From a bacterium (GTDB lineage: Bacteria > Orphanbacterota > Orphanbacteria > Orphanbacterales > Orphanbacteraceae), in the NCBI GenBank assembly GCA_025782575.1, contig JALGYY010000025.1, forward strand, positions 62,001 to 126,000: a stretch of DNA of 64,000 nt, written 5' to 3'. Below the pieces are notes generated by a model. That model saw nothing but the letters and a program-made list of their open reading frames with translations. It did not search any database and was not told the DNA's origin. Numbering within the stretch: the stretch's first letter is position 1; each line of letters begins with the position of its first letter. Below, piece after piece: positions 22,936-37,632 of this stretch. The position numbers and the translations under genes are program-made.

Positions 22936-24388
22936 TTCCGCCCTGTTTTTCAATCAATTTAATTTTTCTATTGATTTCAACAAATATTGCTTGACACATT
23001 CTGGGACCAGCCAGTCTGCACTGTCGCGAGTGGCCCGCCGGCTCCTCACTCGAAGAGCTCTCGCTATCGTGAATCGTTTGGAATCGATTTCCTTGTTGGA
23101 TTTGCAAAATTTACGACGATTCCTTGTGTAGCGCCTCTCTCGACGCCGAAAAATGCGTGTTAGAATGTTTGTGGGGCTTGGATCGACAAGGGTGGATGTG
23201 TGAGGAGGAATGTGATGACGACGAAGAAGATGAAGCGATCGATCGAGCAGCTTTCCAACAATGCCGTGATTCAAGAAGGAGATCGGGCGGTTCGGAACGA
23301 ACATGCATTGCTAATTTCCATTCTCAAATGTCTGAACGAAATCGAAAAACGATCTCTCTATTTGAAGGAAGGCTACTCCTCTCTGTTTGCCTTCTGCACC
23401 TGCCGCTGGCGCTATTCCCCATCCAAGGCGGGGAGGTTTATCGCGGCTGCCAGATGTATGAAAAAATTCCCAGCGGCAAGAATGCTCCTGGTGGATCGCA
23501 AGATCACTGTGTGTGGCCTCGCGAAGATCGCCCGCCTCCTGGCAGAGGGGAATCCGGAAGAGATCCTCCGATCGGTCTCCGGCAAGACATTTGCCGATAT
23601 TGAGAAGATCGTAACTTCCCATCAGATCGCGCCGGCCATGCGAGAATCCCTGCGACCGATCGGCTTGATTGAACCGGCTGGCAAGACCTCGAACCGGGAA
23701 GACAAAGGCGACCTGTTTCAGGCGGAGGACCCCCCGAATCACACCCATGTTGGGCGTGGCCCGCAACATGATCTGCAACAAGAGCCGGAGCAGCGCTACG
23801 AAATCCGGTTCTCGGCGAGCGAGGAGTTCTGCCGGGATCTTGAGCGGGCGAAGATGGTCTGCTCCGGAAGCTGGACCCTGGAAGCGATTATGGCGAGAGC
23901 CATAAGGGACCTGCTGGAGAAGCGCGATCCCGAGCGGAAAGAGGCACGGCGGAAGAAGAGAGAAGCCAGGAAGCAGAGCAAGTCACATGTCAAGTTCCGA
24001 AGCCAATCGCCGGGCAAACCGGGAACCGTGTCCAGGGCAAAGGCAACAACTGAGACGAATTCCTCTGGCAATGGCAGGCAGGTATCGCCCGTTCGTTCCC
24101 GACACATTCCGGCCCTATTGCGGGATAAGGTGTTCACCCGCGACAACGGGCGCTGCACCTACACCAGTTCCCTCGGCATCCGATGCGACTCGACCGCTCA
24201 TCTCCAGATTGATCACATCACACCGTATTGCCGGGGAGGGGAGCACTCCCTTGAGAATCTGCGCATCCTGTGCGGGAAACACAACCGATTGGCGGCTCGT
24301 GAGATGTCACTGACAAACTGTTGATCGGCGGGTAAGCCTGACGCGGAATGAGAAAGAAACGTATACGTCCCCGGACAGCCCCATTGCC
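22935..24388 (+). mobile_element. HNH-endonuclease element, copy 1
   Basis: The HNH gene and its flanks resemble a second unit at 36148-37632 (opposite strand). Shared outside the coding region are: GTTCCGCCCTG at the left end, TTTCAA(C/T)AAATATTGCTTGACA, a GCGCCTCTCTCGA block with a TA(G/A)AAT hexamer, CTTGGA(T/A)CGACAAGGGTGGAT before the ribosome site, and after the gene GTTGATCGGCGGGT and a right end of the form ACG(T/C)ATACGTC..GGACA.CCCCATT. Similarity beyond the gene on both sides points to a duplicated or mobile unit. No transposase, terminal inverted repeat or target duplication was recognised. Confidence 0.55.
23215..24324 (+). CDS. HNH endonuclease-domain protein (DUF222-like), copy 1
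   Basis: A 369-residue protein. The N-terminal half (LLISILKCLNEIEKRSLYLKEGYSSLFAFC...SPSKAGRFIAAARCMKKFP) is the helical region that precedes HNH domains in this family. A Lys/Arg-rich linker (about residues 235-270) follows, then a C-terminal HNH domain: LRDKVFTRDNGRCTY...LQIDHITPYCRGGEHSLENLRILCGKHN, with the metal-binding His and the Asn/His of the fold. The ATG 23215 has AGGAGG six bases upstream. Family members are putative nucleases, often in several copies per genome; a role in its own spread or in defence is unproven. The paralogue at 36211 shares most of the sequence. Confidence 0.85.
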   Translation: MTTKKMKRSIEQLSNNAVIQEGDRAVRNEHALLISILKCLNEIEKRSLYLKEGYSSLFAFCTCRWRYSPSKAGRFIAAARCMKKFPAARMLLVDRKITVCGLAKIARLLAEGNPEEILRSVSGKTFADIEKIVTSHQIAPAMRESLRPIGLIEPAGKTSNREDKGDLFQAEDPPNHTHVGRGPQHDLQQEPEQRYEIRFSASEEFCRDLERAKMVCSGSWTLEAIMARAIRDLLEKRDPERKEARRKKREARKQSKSHVKFRSQSPGKPGTVSRAKATTETNSSGNGRQVSPVRSRHIPALLRDKVFTRDNGRCTYTSSLGIRCDSTAHLQIDHITPYCRGGEHSLENLRILCGKHNRLAAREMSLTNC

Positions 24389-24499
24389 CTACTCTTGAGA
24401 AAGCCGCACAGGGATCGATCGATCGATTAGACTGTAATCGGGGTGTATGGAGTCGGGTGTGGTTTTTACACGGACTGGAGATTGGTGATCGAATCGATC

Positions 24500-26770
24500 A
24501 TGTCGAGAAGACTGCGGTTGAAAGGCATGTTGGAACGATTGCTGCGGAGAGCGGTGATCTTTCTACCGGCCATGCTCATCGCCTGCAGCGAAGACGCTCC
24601 GAACGAGCCTGGTGGGGATGATTCGAGCAAACCGGCACCGGTGGTCCGGACCTCGATTGTAATGGGAGGACCGGGCGGCCGGAAACTGGTTGCTGCGGAT
24701 ACGCTGGTTTCTCAGGTCATTGTCACGCCTGCCGGTTCGGACACAGCCCGTATTGTGCGGCTGGTCCACCAACTTCCCGATCGCTTCCGGTTTCTTTCAT
24801 TCAGCTCCAACATGGGTTCGCCGGTTCTTTCAACCGGAGAAGTCTTCGTTCCATTTGTAGATGTGCCACCCGGCGACTCGCTCCTGCTGGAGCTAAAACT
24901 ACTGGTGCCCGAGTTCTATCCCGACGGTCAGCCCGTTTATGGCGACATCACCGTGGAAGTGGATCACGATGATGACGGAGGCACGGCGCCTGTGGTCGTG
25001 GCGGATAGCGCGAAAGTGTTGTCCTTCAACGACAGTGGGCCGACATTCGAACTCCTCGCGCCGGGAGTTCCGGCGGTGTATATCTCGGGCGGATTCAATG
25101 GTTGGGATCTCCAGGAGCGATACCGTCTGTTCCCCGATCGACAGGAGAAGTGGTTTCGGTTATCGGGAAATCCAAGTGGAATTCCGGGACATCCAGTATC
25201 CTTCCGCTTTGTCCTGAGCACGCCAGGAGAAAATGACGCCATGCTGATCGCCGACCCTCGGGCGAGGGTTGTCTTTCAAGGCGAAACATCCGTGTATGAT
25301 GCTGGACTCTTTGCGGAGCCATTTGTGTCAGGCCAGCTTCCGGGAGGTGTCACCCCGTCCCGCCTCATAATCTATCAGATATGCGTCGACAATATCGGCG
25401 AGCCGGACGGTCAGATCCGATCAATTCTTCCCGAACATTTGAGGCTGGTCGACTTGGGGATCAATGCGGTCGAGATCTTGCCCGCAATGACCCCGATTGA
25501 CCGACATGCTTCACTCGGTTTCGAGTCATATTCCCTCTTCAGCCGCGATTGGGCGACCGCAGAACTGTTGGACATCGGGGACTTCATCGAATCCGCACAC
25601 TCCGATAACATCGCCGTCTTCTTCACCATCAATCTGGACCGGACCAAGAACGACGGACCCATTGCGAAAATTGATGCGTTCTCCGACGGGGAGAGCGGCC
25701 TGATCAAAAACCGAAGAGGGGACGACCCCGACTATCCCGAGTTCAACTGGGATAACGAGGATATGCGCGACTACTTTCTGGACGCCTGTCTTTTCTGGAT
25801 TGAACAGTATGGTGTGGACGGATTTCGTTTCGAGGGGGTGGAGGCGGCCGATTACGGCGGCTATCGATGGCTCGTCCAGGAGATCAAGAGCCGGTATCCC
25901 AATACATTCCTGATCGCCGATGATCTTTCCTTCCCACCATTCTCCGCGGTGACTTCCTCCGGGATGGACGCGCAGTGGGGCGGACAGAACGAATCCCCCT
26001 GGGGGGGTACCGCGAACAATTTCCAGAATGTCATGATGGCACTCCTTCGGGAGGACCGCTATTCCGGGCGGATCTGGGAGCCGGCGCGCGGCTCATGGGA
26101 GACCAGCGAGAACCCGATGTGGGCGCTCGCCGATGTGCTCGGCCCGAACCCCGGATTCCCGACGGCATGGAATGAGATCAAATATGTCGTTAATTATCGC
26201 GAGCAACGAGTGGTCGGCGAAGTCGATCGTAACGGTACGCTGCGCGCCCGTGAAGTCGGAGGCCTCACGAAAGCAAGGCTTGCAGCGGCCACACTTCTCA
26301 CAGCTGTCGGCATTCCGATGATCTTCATGGGCGAGGAGATCGGAGAGGACGACTACTATTTTCCCTCGCCTCACCCCGTCGTCGACGTGGTCGACTGGAA
26401 CGAAGGAGATTACGATCTGCGGGACTACTACAAGGAGCTGATTCGCCTGCGATTGAATCACCCGACTCTTGCTGGAGGAGGAATCCGGTTTCATGGCGAA
26501 GAGTGGGGGGTCGATCAGGGGGTGAGCCAGCAACGGAAGACAATTGTTTACTGGCGCTACCTCGGGAGCGAGGCGGAGACTGACATCGTAGTAGCCGCCA
26601 ACTTCAACCATTTCAATGAGAATGTCCTGGTCGAGTTTCCCGAATCGGGAACCTGGTGGCGTTTCGGACCGGATGGCACTTACACAGAGATTTTTCAAAT
26701 CTCGGGGGCACCGCGCGTCGAGATACCCCGGGCGTCGGCATACATTTACTTTCGCGAAGATCCCCGATAA
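24500..26770 (+). CDS. GH13 alpha-amylase-family lipoprotein lacking catalytic residues
   Basis: A 756-residue lipoprotein (signal FLPAMLIAC). Domain order: a CARDB/DUF11-like beta domain, a CBM48-like early-set domain (VYISGGFNGWDLQERY), then a GH13 barrel and C-terminal beta domain. Compared with the adjacent paralogue the four GH13 motifs are damaged: DMVLNHT is FTINLDRT (25622-25645), GYRLDFVK with the nucleophile Asp is GFRFEGVE (25820-25843), LIGEDFN with the acid/base Glu is LIADDLS (25912-25932), and VSHDEHR is VNYREQR (26189-26209). The reading frame is intact over 2.2 kb, so it is kept under selection, probably as a non-hydrolytic glucan-binding protein. The start is uncertain (ATG 24500, GTG 24485 or ATG 24527). 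Confidence 0.85.
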   Translation: MSRRLRLKGMLERLLRRAVIFLPAMLIACSEDAPNEPGGDDSSKPAPVVRTSIVMGGPGGRKLVAADTLVSQVIVTPAGSDTARIVRLVHQLPDRFRFLSFSSNMGSPVLSTGEVFVPFVDVPPGDSLLLELKLLVPEFYPDGQPVYGDITVEVDHDDDGGTAPVVVADSAKVLSFNDSGPTFELLAPGVPAVYISGGFNGWDLQERYRLFPDRQEKWFRLSGNPSGIPGHPVSFRFVLSTPGENDAMLIADPRARVVFQGETSVYDAGLFAEPFVSGQLPGGVTPSRLIIYQICVDNIGEPDGQIRSILPEHLRLVDLGINAVEILPAMTPIDRHASLGFESYSLFSRDWATAELLDIGDFIESAHSDNIAVFFTINLDRTKNDGPIAKIDAFSDGESGLIKNRRGDDPDYPEFNWDNEDMRDYFLDACLFWIEQYGVDGFRFEGVEAADYGGYRWLVQEIKSRYPNTFLIADDLSFPPFSAVTSSGMDAQWGGQNESPWGGTANNFQNVMMALLREDRYSGRIWEPARGSWETSENPMWALADVLGPNPGFPTAWNEIKYVVNYREQRVVGEVDRNGTLRAREVGGLTKARLAAATLLTAVGIPMIFMGEEIGEDDYYFPSPHPVVDVVDWNEGDYDLRDYYKELIRLRLNHPTLAGGGIRFHGEEWGVDQGVSQQRKTIVYWRYLGSEAETDIVVAANFNHFNENVLVEFPESGTWWRFGPDGTYTEIFQISGAPRVEIPRASAYIYFREDPR

Positions 26771-26782
26771 GGTGATGATGTC

Positions 26783-29098
26783 ATGAACAGGAATCGCATT
26801 CAGTTCTTTCTGATTCTATTGCTCGTTGCCTCGATCGCAGCAATTTTTTCCTGCAGCGACGACTCCCTCCCGATACCCGTACCCATCCCCGGGGACGACG
26901 ACGATGATGACGACAACGGCCCGATCATCTCGAATGTTTCGCTGACCCTCGATGTGGGGGCGGCAATCGGTGAGCCGAAGGCCGGCGACACTCTGGTCGC
27001 AATCGGCACCATTGTCAACACAGGGGAAGCGCCGACTAAAGACCTTGAAGTGATCTACCATTACCCCGAATGCTTCGATTTTCTGACATCCACCGTTCGC
27101 TACGATCGCTCAGAAAAAATCTCCGATTCTCTTGTCACGATCCCCCTTCCCCTCGACCCGGCCGATACCGCCACGATCGAACTGAAACTGCTTATCCCTA
27201 AGCACTATCCCGACGGCTGGCAGGCGGAAGTCTCTCTTCTGGCTACTGTCGACCATGACCTAGCTGATTCGACCGATCCGATCGCTGTTACACAATCGGC
27301 CGCCGCGGAGATCAGAAACGACGGTCTCGATTTCACGGTTTATGGGCCGGGCGTTCCGGAGATCTTCCTTGCGGGGGAATTCAATGGTTGGCTGGATTCC
27401 ACACCCCGCGATCCTGACTATCTGCTGTTTGAAGACGAAGAATCCGGCCAATGGGGAATCACTGTAAATGCTTCCGGCCGACAGCAATACAAGTTCCAGC
27501 TTTATGCAGCCCCGTTCAGCAAACCGGAGTGGATCGGCGATCCGCGAGCGACCCTCCTGGAGCCGGACGGGTTCGATGGATACAACAGCGTCGGCGGAGT
27601 CCCTCTTCCCGACCCTGTGGCGCCTCTCTCAGGAGGGATCGACAAATCCAAGCTCGTGATTTATGAGCTGTTCACATGGGACTTCTCACCGGCAGGCGAT
27701 TTCCAGTCGGTAATCGACGGAATCACAGGGGGCGATCCTGACCTGGTGGATCTCGGTATAAACGCAATCGAATTGCTGCCTGTAACCGGGGTTCGGCCTG
27801 AGCGGGCAGGGGACTCACCCGGCCAGACCGAGGACCGATTCAACTGGGGGTACACCCCCAACTTCTACTTCGCAGTGGAAAATGACTACGGCTCGCTCCA
27901 GGACTTCGCCGATCTCGTAGAGACAGCTCATCAGAACGGTATCGCCGTCATTCTCGACATGGTGCTTAATCACACATCCGGCGGCGGTTCCCCCATGTGG
28001 GTTCTCGACGCCTGGGGCACGCCCGGTTCCTGGATCAACCATGATCAGAGTAACCAGTTCGGTCTTCCCGAAATGAACTGGGAGTCCGAAGAGATCAGAC
28101 AATTCATGCTGGACGTCTGTCTCTTCTGGATCGAGCAATACGGAATCGACGGCTACCGTCTGGACTTCGTAAAGCCCGAGGAGTACACCGCCTATGCCTG
28201 GCTCCGAAATGAGATTAAGAGTCGTCATCCGGACTTCCTGCTGATCGGCGAGGACTTTAATTATCCGCCGAACAGTTGCATCAATCTCTCAGGATTCGAC
28301 GCGCAGTGGGGTGGCCAGCACACCGATCAATGGGGCGGGGTCGCCAACAACTTCATGCAGATCGTCCAGGCGCTCTTGAAGGAAGGACAATACTTCGGAC
28401 GCGGTTCTTTCCCCTACGGTTCGTTCGAGACCGAGGACAATCCGATGTGGGCGCTCGCCAATGTGCTATCCCAGAATGATGCGTTCGGCAGCCCCCATAA
28501 CGAGATCCGCTACATCGTGAGCCACGATGAACATCGCATGGTATGGGAAGTAGACAACCTGGGTTCTCCCGAGGCGCAGGCGATCGGGGGCATTAGAAAA
28601 TCAAAGCTCGGCGCGGCCACACTGTTCACATCGGTCGGGATCCCGATGATCTACATGGGGGATGAGATCGGCGAAGATGATTTCGTGCCCCAGCATCCGA
28701 CTCCGAACAAGATAGATTGGGCGAGTGGCGACCAGGAACTTCGCACATACTTCAAAGAACTGATCTCGCTCCGTCTCGGCCGGCCCGACCTCGCCTCCAC
28801 CGGGATCTCATTCTTCGGGCCGGACTGGGGAGTTTCGGAAGGTTCCTACCAACAGAACAAAACAATCCAGTACTGGCGCTACTCAGGCGCGAACGAGCAG
28901 AACGCGGGAGTCGTCGTGGCGTCCAACTTCGACCATGACGACCACGATCTTGTAGTCCAGTTTCCCTCGTCCGGCTCGTGGCTTCGCTTCGGACCTGATG
29001 ACGGTTACACTGGCCTGGTGATCGACGGGTCGAAGGCGCTCGCTCTAACGATCCCGGCATCGACCGCGTATATTTTCACAAGGATCGATACGAGGTAA
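26783..29098 (+). CDS. GH13 alpha-amylase-family lipoprotein (active-site residues present)
   Basis: A 771-residue lipoprotein (signal ending IFSC, followed by an acidic Asp run in residues 35-43). Same architecture as the preceding gene: DUF11-like domain, CBM48-like domain (IFLAGEFNGWLDSTP), GH13 catalytic barrel and C-terminal beta domain. All four motifs are intact: DMVLNHT, GYRLDFVK (nucleophile Asp), LIGEDFN (acid/base Glu) and VSHDEHR. The order and CBM48 suggest action on alpha-1,4/1,6-glucans at the cell surface; precise specificity (branching enzyme, maltooligosyl-trehalose hydrolase-like or amylase) is not resolved. It follows its paralogue by 12 bases and clearly arose by tandem duplication. 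Confidence 0.9.
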   Translation: MNRNRIQFFLILLLVASIAAIFSCSDDSLPIPVPIPGDDDDDDDNGPIISNVSLTLDVGAAIGEPKAGDTLVAIGTIVNTGEAPTKDLEVIYHYPECFDFLTSTVRYDRSEKISDSLVTIPLPLDPADTATIELKLLIPKHYPDGWQAEVSLLATVDHDLADSTDPIAVTQSAAAEIRNDGLDFTVYGPGVPEIFLAGEFNGWLDSTPRDPDYLLFEDEESGQWGITVNASGRQQYKFQLYAAPFSKPEWIGDPRATLLEPDGFDGYNSVGGVPLPDPVAPLSGGIDKSKLVIYELFTWDFSPAGDFQSVIDGITGGDPDLVDLGINAIELLPVTGVRPERAGDSPGQTEDRFNWGYTPNFYFAVENDYGSLQDFADLVETAHQNGIAVILDMVLNHTSGGGSPMWVLDAWGTPGSWINHDQSNQFGLPEMNWESEEIRQFMLDVCLFWIEQYGIDGYRLDFVKPEEYTAYAWLRNEIKSRHPDFLLIGEDFNYPPNSCINLSGFDAQWGGQHTDQWGGVANNFMQIVQALLKEGQYFGRGSFPYGSFETEDNPMWALANVLSQNDAFGSPHNEIRYIVSHDEHRMVWEVDNLGSPEAQAIGGIRKSKLGAATLFTSVGIPMIYMGDEIGEDDFVPQHPTPNKIDWASGDQELRTYFKELISLRLGRPDLASTGISFFGPDWGVSEGSYQQNKTIQYWRYSGANEQNAGVVVASNFDHDDHDLVVQFPSSGSWLRFGPDDGYTGLVIDGSKALALTIPASTAYIFTRIDTR

Positions 29099-29131
29099 GA
29101 GTAGCGGCGACGAACGAGAGCCCCTGATCCT

Positions 29132-29647
29132 TCATCTATCTAATTCGACGTTCTTCGCCATGACAACGCTCTCGTAATTCGTCGGCTTCCAGTCTGCTTT
29201 GTCGACTACCTCATACCCCAGGCGCATATAGAAAGCGATCAGGTGCTTCGCCGGCTCGGCAGTGTCGAGCGCGATGATCGCTGCTCCCGTCTCCCGGGCT
29301 CGTTTCTCAGCCAGGTCGATCAGGCGAAGTCCGATTCGGTCACCCCGATGTTCAGGATCGACGCCGAGCTGGCCGAAGCTCGCTACATCCGGCCGGTCCA
29401 GGTAGGGGCACCCTCTCGTAAGCGTAGGAATACGGAAATTAACCGTGCCGACGAACCGGCCGGCCTTCACCGCTACCCAGCACTCACCGAAACCGATCCG
29501 CCTCGCTGTAGTCTCGTCGGTCTGGTCGGTGGCGACGTAGTGGAGCCCCATTTCATGAAGCTCGGCGTAGGCCCTGTGGAGCAGCGCCGTCAGATCACCG
29601 ATGGAATCGCCCTCATCCCCGAATCTGCGAATCACGACGTCACTCAC
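29132..29647 (-). CDS. GNAT-family N-acetyltransferase
   Basis: A 171-residue acetyltransferase: FGQLGVDPEHRGDRIGLRLIDLAEKRARE holds the acetyl-CoA pyrophosphate-binding loop (here R-G-D-R-I-G), and the C-terminal AFYMRLGYEVVDKADW is typical. Substrate unknown. Its start overlaps the stop of the upstream ABC/M1 fusion gene by four bases, so the two are translationally coupled. Confidence 0.85.
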   Translation of the reverse strand: MSDVVIRRFGDEGDSIGDLTALLHRAYAELHEMGLHYVATDQTDETTARRIGFGECWVAVKAGRFVGTVNFRIPTLTRGCPYLDRPDVASFGQLGVDPEHRGDRIGLRLIDLAEKRARETGAAIIALDTAEPAKHLIAFYMRLGYEVVDKADWKPTNYESVVMAKNVELDR

Positions 29648-36147: not shown

Positions 36148-37632
36148 AATGGGGGTGTCCAGTGACGTATGCGTTTTCCTGTCGCTACTGGTCGTAGCTC
36201 CACCCGCCGATCAACGTTTTGTAAGTGACATCTCACGAGCAGCCAATCGGTTGTGTTTGCCGCACAGGAGACGCAGATTCTTGAGGGAGTGCTCCCCACC
36301 CAGGCAAAATGGGGTGATGTGATCGATCTGCAGGTGAGCGATCGAGTCGCACTGCATGCCGAGAGAACTAGTATACGTACAGCGCCCTTTGTCGCGGGTG
36401 AATACCGCGTCCCTTAACTGCGCTGGAATGTGTCGCGAACGGGCGGGCGGTGCCTGAACGCGCTTGCCCGAGGACTTCATGTCGGTTGCTGCCTTTACCC
36501 CGCTCATGGTTGCCGGTTTGCTCGGCGATTGGCTCCGCAACTTGCTCTTCTTCCCGGCTTCTCTCTTCCTCCGCCGCGCCTCTTTTCGCTCGGGATCGCG
36601 CTTCTCCAGCAGATCCTTGATCGCTCTCCCCATGATCGCCTCCAGATTCCAGCTCCGGGAGCAGACCCTCTTAGCCCGTTCCAGGTCCCGGCAGAATTCT
36701 TCGCTCGCCGAAAACCGGATCTCGTAGCGATGTTCCGGTTTCTCCATCGGACGTTCAATTGGAGAGTCTCCCCCGGACTGATCCGCCTGATCATCCGTCA
36801 AATTACTATCAATTTGATAGTTCTCAAGTGTTCGATTCGGTCGAAAGAGATCCTCGTGATCGGCACTTCGATCCCGGCCGACAGCCGGCTCCTGCAGACC
36901 GATCGGCCGGATCGACTCCCGGGTTTTCGGAGCGATCTTCAGCGAGGCGACGATCTTTTCGATCTCCACGAATTTCTTTCCCGAAACTTCCTGAAGGATC
37001 CTGTCGGAGTTCTCTTTGGTTAGAATTCCGGCGATTCTGGATACGCCGCAAAGGGTAATCTTGCGCCGGGAGAGCAGATTCCGTACGGCTGGAAAGCTCT
37101 TCGTACATCGGGCGGCCGCAATGAACCGTCCCGCTTTGGGAGGCGAGTAGTGCCATCTCCGAACGCAGAAATCGAACAGCGATGAGTGCCCTTCCTCCAG
37201 GAAAATCGACCGCCCCTCGATCTCGACCAGACAGTCGAGAATCTCGATGGCGAGCTCATGCCGGCTACGAACCGCCCGATCCCCTTTTTGAATGATCTCA
37301 TGGTTGGAAAGCTTCACCAGCACCGATTCCATCTTCTTGGTCGTCGTCATCTTCATCCCCTTCTGATCCACCCTTGTCGTTCCAAGCCCCGCAGATATTT
37401 TAGCATGCCCCTTTTCGGCTTCGAGAGAGGCGCTGCAAGATCGGTCGCGGCTGGATTTGAAAAAGTCGACAAGGAGATCACCTCCAATAGATTCACGATG
37501 ACGAGAGGGTTTCTGAAGGGGGGCCTGTGAGGGGTCTGCAACGATCGAGATTCGCAGGCTCCAGAACCTGTCAAGCAATATTTATTGAAATGGATAGAAA
37601 GTTCAAAATAGTCGAGCGACTCAGGGCGGAAC
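36148..37632 (-). mobile_element. HNH-endonuclease element, copy 2
   Basis: The mirror unit of 22935-24388, on the minus strand. The flank before the gene (37351-37632) repeats GTTCCGCCCTG, the TTTCAATAAATATTGCTTGACA stretch, the GCGCCTCTCTCGA block with CTAAAAT and CTTGGAACGACAAGGGTGGAT; the flank after the gene repeats GTTGATCGGCGGGT and ends ACGCATACGTCACTGGACACCCCCATT (36148-36177 as its complement). Length about 1485 bases against 1454 for copy 1. Confidence 0.55.
36211..37350 (-). CDS. HNH endonuclease-domain protein (DUF222-like), copy 2
   Basis: A 379-residue paralogue of the protein at 23215, alike from MTTTKKME to the C-terminus: IVEIEGRSIFLEEGHSSLFDFC, SPPKAGRFIAAARCTKSFP, SGKKFVEIEKIVAS, RYEIRFSASEEFCRDLERAKRVC, a Lys/Arg-rich linker and the HNH domain LRDAVFTRDKGRCTY...LQIDHITPFCLGGEHSLKNLRLLCGKHN. 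The most variable part is the linker after the SGKK segment. ATG 37350 has AAGGGG six bases upstream. Both copies are intact, so neither has yet decayed. Confidence 0.85.
   Translation of the reverse strand: MTTTKKMESVLVKLSNHEIIQKGDRAVRSRHELAIEILDCLVEIEGRSIFLEEGHSSLFDFCVRRWHYSPPKAGRFIAAARCTKSFPAVRNLLSRRKITLCGVSRIAGILTKENSDRILQEVSGKKFVEIEKIVASLKIAPKTRESIRPIGLQEPAVGRDRSADHEDLFRPNRTLENYQIDSNLTDDQADQSGGDSPIERPMEKPEHRYEIRFSASEEFCRDLERAKRVCSRSWNLEAIMGRAIKDLLEKRDPERKEARRRKREAGKKSKLRSQSPSKPATMSGVKAATDMKSSGKRVQAPPARSRHIPAQLRDAVFTRDKGRCTYTSSLGMQCDSIAHLQIDHITPFCLGGEHSLKNLRLLCGKHNRLAAREMSLTKR

Follow-up and report, generated by a model that had tools for sequence, protein, structure and literature searches.

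The window, a stretch of 64,000 nucleotides, contains two adjoining genes of the GH13 family, both encoding lipoproteins. The upstream gene encodes a protein with altered catalytic residues (hereafter the dead copy), and the downstream gene is its active paralogue (hereafter the sister). Their features are listed in Table 1. The first-pass annotation had described an intact frame of 2.3 kb in tandem with an active gene, and both points hold. The frame of the dead copy runs from the ATG at 24500 to the TAA at 26768-26770 with zero internal stops, GTG 24443 and ATG 24527 being alternative in-frame starts, and 12 nt separate this stop from the ATG of the intact sister. The two proteins align end to end with 42% identity and with in-frame gaps only. 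A lipobox is found in both (...MLIAC29 in the dead copy and ...AIFSC24 in the sister), so both are probably sent to the same membrane. The AAGGTG sequence preceding the sister is its likely ribosome-binding site. As this putative site overlaps the stop codon of the dead copy, the two genes would be co-translated, and the two proteins are probably made together. A promoter scan of 24250-29250 revealed no sigma-70-like promoter, the sigma-70 pattern being uninformative for the host phylum.

Table 1. Features of the dead copy and of its sister, with positions in the window.
Feature	Positions	Strand	Basis
Dead copy, predicted inactive GH13 lipoprotein, 756 aa	24500..26770	+	Pfam Alpha-amylase, E 5e-9; AlphaFold barrel elements
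Lipobox cysteine C29 (MLIAC) of the dead copy	24584..24586	+	Translation read directly
N-terminal Ig-like region, weakly DUF11-like	24590..25036	+	Pfam DUF11, E 0.014, below cut-off; strands in the model
CBM48-like domain with altered sugar site	25037..25304	+	Alignment; Pfam CBM48 match of the sister below threshold
Motif I, FFTINLDRT (sister ILDMVLNHT)	25619..25645	+	Alignment; D392T, N396D, H397R
Motif II, GFRFEGV (sister GYRLDFV)	25820..25840	+	Nucleophile Asp replaced by E445
Motif III, LIADDLSF (sister LIGEDFNY)	25910..25933	+	Acid/base Glu replaced by D474
Motif IV, VVNYREQR (sister IVSHDEHR)	26186..26209	+	HD replaced by Y566 R567
Junction between dead copy and sister	26768..26783	+	Stop codon overlaps AAGGTG, 8 nt before the sister ATG
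Sister GH13 lipoprotein, 771 aa, canonical catalytic residues	26783..29098	+	D461 nucleophile, E490 acid/base, H581-D582

With regard to the fold, the dead copy is recognised as a (beta/alpha)8 barrel by Pfam, by its AlphaFold model and by its matches to GH13 structures of the PDB. It scores 36.3 bits against Pfam PF00128 (Alpha-amylase, cut-off 22) and the sister 102 bits; the mean pLDDT values of the AlphaFold models are 76.7 and 85.5, respectively, and both models match PDB GH13 enzymes, the ISA1/ISA2 complexes being among the fold matches. Both proteins exhibit the same order of domains, namely a weakly DUF11-like N-terminal region, a CBM48-like domain, the barrel and a C-terminal beta domain, where the labels DUF11 and CBM48 rest on the alignment and on the AlphaFold models, the Pfam matches lying under their cut-offs. 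The top matches of the sister among solved structures, by sequence and by structure, are BoGH13A_Sus and then RmGH13_47A, with which it shares the N-terminal domain, the CBM48-like domain, the barrel and domain C. However, these are active enzymes with only about 18-21% identity to the sister, BoGH13A_Sus being from gut Bacteroides, and a position of the sister in GH13_47 is only a lead. A PDB profile search returned mostly GlgB rows and was of no help in placing the subfamily, and the scores of both copies were far under the cut-off for GlgB membership. The best NCBIfam match of both copies is TreZ (malto-oligosyltrehalose trehalohydrolase, TIGR02402), yet neither is a member, as the dead copy reaches 65.2 bits and the sister 127.1 bits against a cut-off of 538.8.

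Members of GH13 have between four and seven conserved sequence regions and cleave alpha-glycosidic bonds with retention. Membership is also defined by a catalytic triad located on strands beta4, beta5 and beta7 of the barrel (PMC11239784). This Asp-Glu-Asp triad is present in the sister (D461, E490 and D582) and absent in the dead copy (E445, D474 and R567). None of the seven classical GH13 active-site residues is kept in the dead copy: D392T, N396D, H397R, D461E, E490D, H581Y and D582R, in sister numbering with the dead-copy residue last. The alignment with the sister agrees with the first-pass annotation on the replacement of the nucleophile Asp by Glu, of the acid/base Glu by Asp and of HD by YR, and on the loss of the Asn-His of motif I, now D380 and R381. 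It also reveals a change that the annotation had missed, since the Asp of motif I has become T376. The sister keeps all seven residues. They are invariant in the sister, in the active homologues of genomes G001 and G004 and in the active homologue L031, and that of G002 keeps them too. The four classical motifs of the dead copy are recognisable by position, with their key residues altered; the Arg of motif II is retained, and this motif was aligned with that of the D252E mutant of TreZ (PDB 3vgd). The Trp and Tyr of the FNWGY segment (W355 and Y357 in the sister) are replaced by Leu and Phe, and the Tyr-Gly of a loop (Y369 and G370 in the sister) is also substituted. The enzymatic chemistry of the dead copy has almost certainly been lost, and glycosidase activity would be absent.

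We searched for relatives in seven genomes of the host's small phylum and in a scan of 84,980 species genomes. The active lipoprotein is present as a single copy in three of the six other genomes of the phylum and the dead copy in none of them. The scan added the active L031 as well as L035 and L036, which are distantly related and carry canonical motifs; the latter two (L035:1277-3220 and L036:5848-7698) are devoid of the N-terminal Ig-like domain. Neither collection yielded an orthologue of the dead copy, which is thus known from one genome only, and dN/dS on orthologues was impossible. The position of the dead copy in the trees is unsettled, and its pairing with the sister is not preferred: forcing this pairing costs 6.5 lnL units (p-AU 0.066) for the whole alignment and 3.9 lnL units (p-AU 0.084) for the second half alone. 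A recent duplication within the genus is neither shown nor excluded by these tests. Gene conversion was not seen in the well-kept half, in which the dead copy is equally close to L031 and to the sister.

The changes in the dead copy are not evenly distributed. Every one of the seven catalytic positions is changed, compared to 64 of the 220 remaining positions at which the active copies agree (Fisher p = 2.4e-4). Of the invariant positions, 33 of 60 are changed in the first barrel half and 22 of 122 in the second half and domain C (p = 8e-7), whereas the active copies show about equal change on the two sides of the same split. Within the well-kept part, comprising the second barrel half and domain C, the catalytic positions again stand out, with 4/4 changed against 18/118 of the others (p = 8e-4). 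As judged from the alignment, this pattern is that of an active site that has been released and a fold that has been retained.

The codon agreement between the dead copy and the sister at sites encoding the same amino acid is 0.37, which is the value expected by independent choice (0.37), so synonymous divergence is saturated. At the protein level, 156 of the 227 residues invariant in the active copies (69%) are kept in the dead copy. We applied a codon model to 675 codons of six sequences, with one omega for all sites, so that the figures are approximate but leave no doubt about the direction. Fixing omega at 1 for the branch of the dead copy costs 42.7 lnL units, with a similar cost on a second topology, and the likelihood profile favours an omega below about 0.1 on this branch, its exact value not being determinable as synonymous sites are saturated. 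Any neutral phase at the end of the branch could have lasted for at most about 0.1 substitutions per codon according to the likelihood, or about 0.13 given the absence of stop codons (3 stops expected). Within 0.1 neutral substitutions per codon, a change at each of the seven catalytic residues has a probability of 7e-8.

These values bear on the possibility that the dead copy is at an early stage of decay, its function lost recently and its frame still unbroken. Such a history could account for a terminal branch about twice as long as those of the single active copies in the trees (1.1-1.5 versus 0.5-0.7) and for the presence of the dead copy in one genome only. Nevertheless, it is very unlikely, as the likelihood bound and the absence of stops leave much too little neutral time for seven catalytic changes out of seven, and the rate of the second half is nearly as low as in the active copies. 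An artefact of assembly or sequencing is the least credible explanation and can practically be dismissed: the assembly is likely of the metagenome type and contigs break at repeated HNH genes, but the differences are all in-frame substitutions, spread across 756 codons, and synonymous change is saturated. On these rates, the dead copy is not a decaying pseudogene and is held by purifying selection, above all in the second barrel half and domain C. As its fold has been maintained by selection, a non-enzymatic function is probable. With its catalytic residues lost and the protein kept by selection, the dead copy is a real, selected GH13 pseudoenzyme, of which other cases are already known. The suggestion in the first-pass annotation of a pseudo-enzyme that is maintained is thus borne out by the rejection of neutrality and by the proportion of invariant residues that remain.

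The same annotation proposed that this pseudoenzyme still binds alpha-glucan and serves the sister as a surface carbohydrate-binding protein. The retained fold would be compatible with this, as would the family aromatics of the beta5-beta8 half, which are kept in the dead copy (W509, W517, F524 and W556 in sister numbering). In the CBM48-like domain, we compared the positions of W100, K126, W133 and N150 of AMPK-beta, which bind glycogen in that protein. The sister, L031 and the homologues of G001, G002 and G004 exhibit W, K, W and N at these positions, whereas the dead copy exhibits W202, R236, L249 and T263 in the alignment. The first Trp is therefore kept, but three of the four residues are replaced (K by R, W by L and N by T), and the dead copy does not have a glycogen site of the AMPK-beta type. 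The site is also missing in L035 and L036, which possess canonical catalytic motifs, so its loss alone is not special. In the barrel, the residues of subsite -1 are all replaced, including the Trp and Tyr of FNWGY and the Tyr-Gly of the loop, and the immediate neighbourhood shows no evident Sus-type genes. With changes in both classical sugar sites, the dead copy is less likely to act simply by binding glucan; the sequence makes a simple starch-binding helper unlikely, and the glucan-binding part of the earlier proposal is not supported, although contact with glucan elsewhere on the surface of the dead copy may persist.

Alternatively, the pocket formed by T376, D380, R381, E445, D474, Y566 and R567 could have been re-tooled to bind or process a different, probably charged, ligand. 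Rather than being random, the new residues are charged or polar, and losses cluster at the active site of a protein whose fold is constrained. On the other hand, the transition-state Asp has become an Arg, and we know of no characterised active GH13 with such a residue at this position. Furthermore, no relative sharing these residues, which could show that the pocket is conserved, was found in the searched genomes. Aberrant residues are not always incompatible with activity, as BmaN1 of GH13_45 is active with two of the three canonical residues altered, and in the Bacillus sequences Nos 28-34 all three triad positions are substituted (PMC5347038). These are, like the dead copy, bacterial GH13 proteins with altered catalytic residues. 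However, BmaN1 still has the acid/base Glu, and an Asp lies beside its nucleophile position, whereas the dead copy shows no obvious substitute nearby and has also lost motif I. Overall, a re-tooled pocket seems improbable.

The reading that we favour, with a probability slightly above one half (about 0.55), is that the dead copy is a selected non-catalytic partner of the sister, comparable to ISA2 of plants. A duplicated GH13 lipoprotein of the surface or the periplasm would have become a pseudoenzyme, which would be co-translated with its active sister and act as its non-catalytic subunit. It could, for instance, stabilise, localise or regulate the sister in a hetero-oligomer through its conserved half, as ISA2 does with ISA1, and most likely would not act via classical alpha-glucan sites. 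A physical partnership between the two proteins is plausible, and the 12-nt junction points that way. Several observations count against a partner: the dead copy occurs in one genome only, the active copy is alone in G001, G002, G004 and L031, omega is poorly determined at saturated synonymous sites, and the second half may be conserved for folding and not as an interface. A more specific version, in which the pair is a bacterial counterpart of ISA1/ISA2, i.e., a co-translated, obligate hetero-oligomer whose dead subunit regulates or anchors the active one without glucan sites of its own, is tentative.

In all cases examined, at least four of the five catalytic residues of ISA2 are lost, and the protein associates with ISA1 (PMC12510319). 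Like the dead copy, it is a GH13 paralogue with altered catalytic residues that is kept by selection beside an active paralogue (PMC12510319). It differs in that it is of the isoamylase type, is found in chloroplasts and has been shown to form a complex with ISA1, whereas the dead copy is a bacterial lipoprotein of another GH13 type, known from its sequence. The ectodomains of 4F2hc and rBAT (SLC3) are also non-enzymatic GH13 folds that partner another protein, and 4F2hc shows neither glucosidase activity nor binding on glycan arrays (PMC8537225). In their case the partner is an animal amino-acid transporter, whereas the likely partner of the dead copy is its active paralogue. GH13 proteins with an incomplete catalytic set are often disregarded; for example, 17 such sequences were dropped as sequencing errors or pseudogenes (PMC11239784). 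The dead copy is demonstrably constrained, with its loss focused on the active site, and would allow the persistence of a dead amylase paralogue to be studied in a compact bacterial system, the reason for keeping ISA2 having been described as an open question (PMC12510319).

The host genome also encodes a further secreted member of GH13, of 825 aa, in which the motifs are intact (L010:434-2911, G000:C20). A relative of this gene lies directly downstream of the active lipoprotein gene in G001 and G002, an arrangement not found in the host. Genes of the HNH-endonuclease type are located directly upstream of the pair (23200-24324, + strand) and at 36217-37350 (- strand). The family of the upstream gene has 47 matching places in the genome, many at contig ends, and comprises full-length copies with identities of up to about 80% as well as fragments interrupted by stops; it looks like a proliferating element. 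A diverged copy with 40% identity (L012:4931-6058, G000:C2:196939-198036) adjoins a GH13 gene (L012:1288-4368) elsewhere in the host genome.
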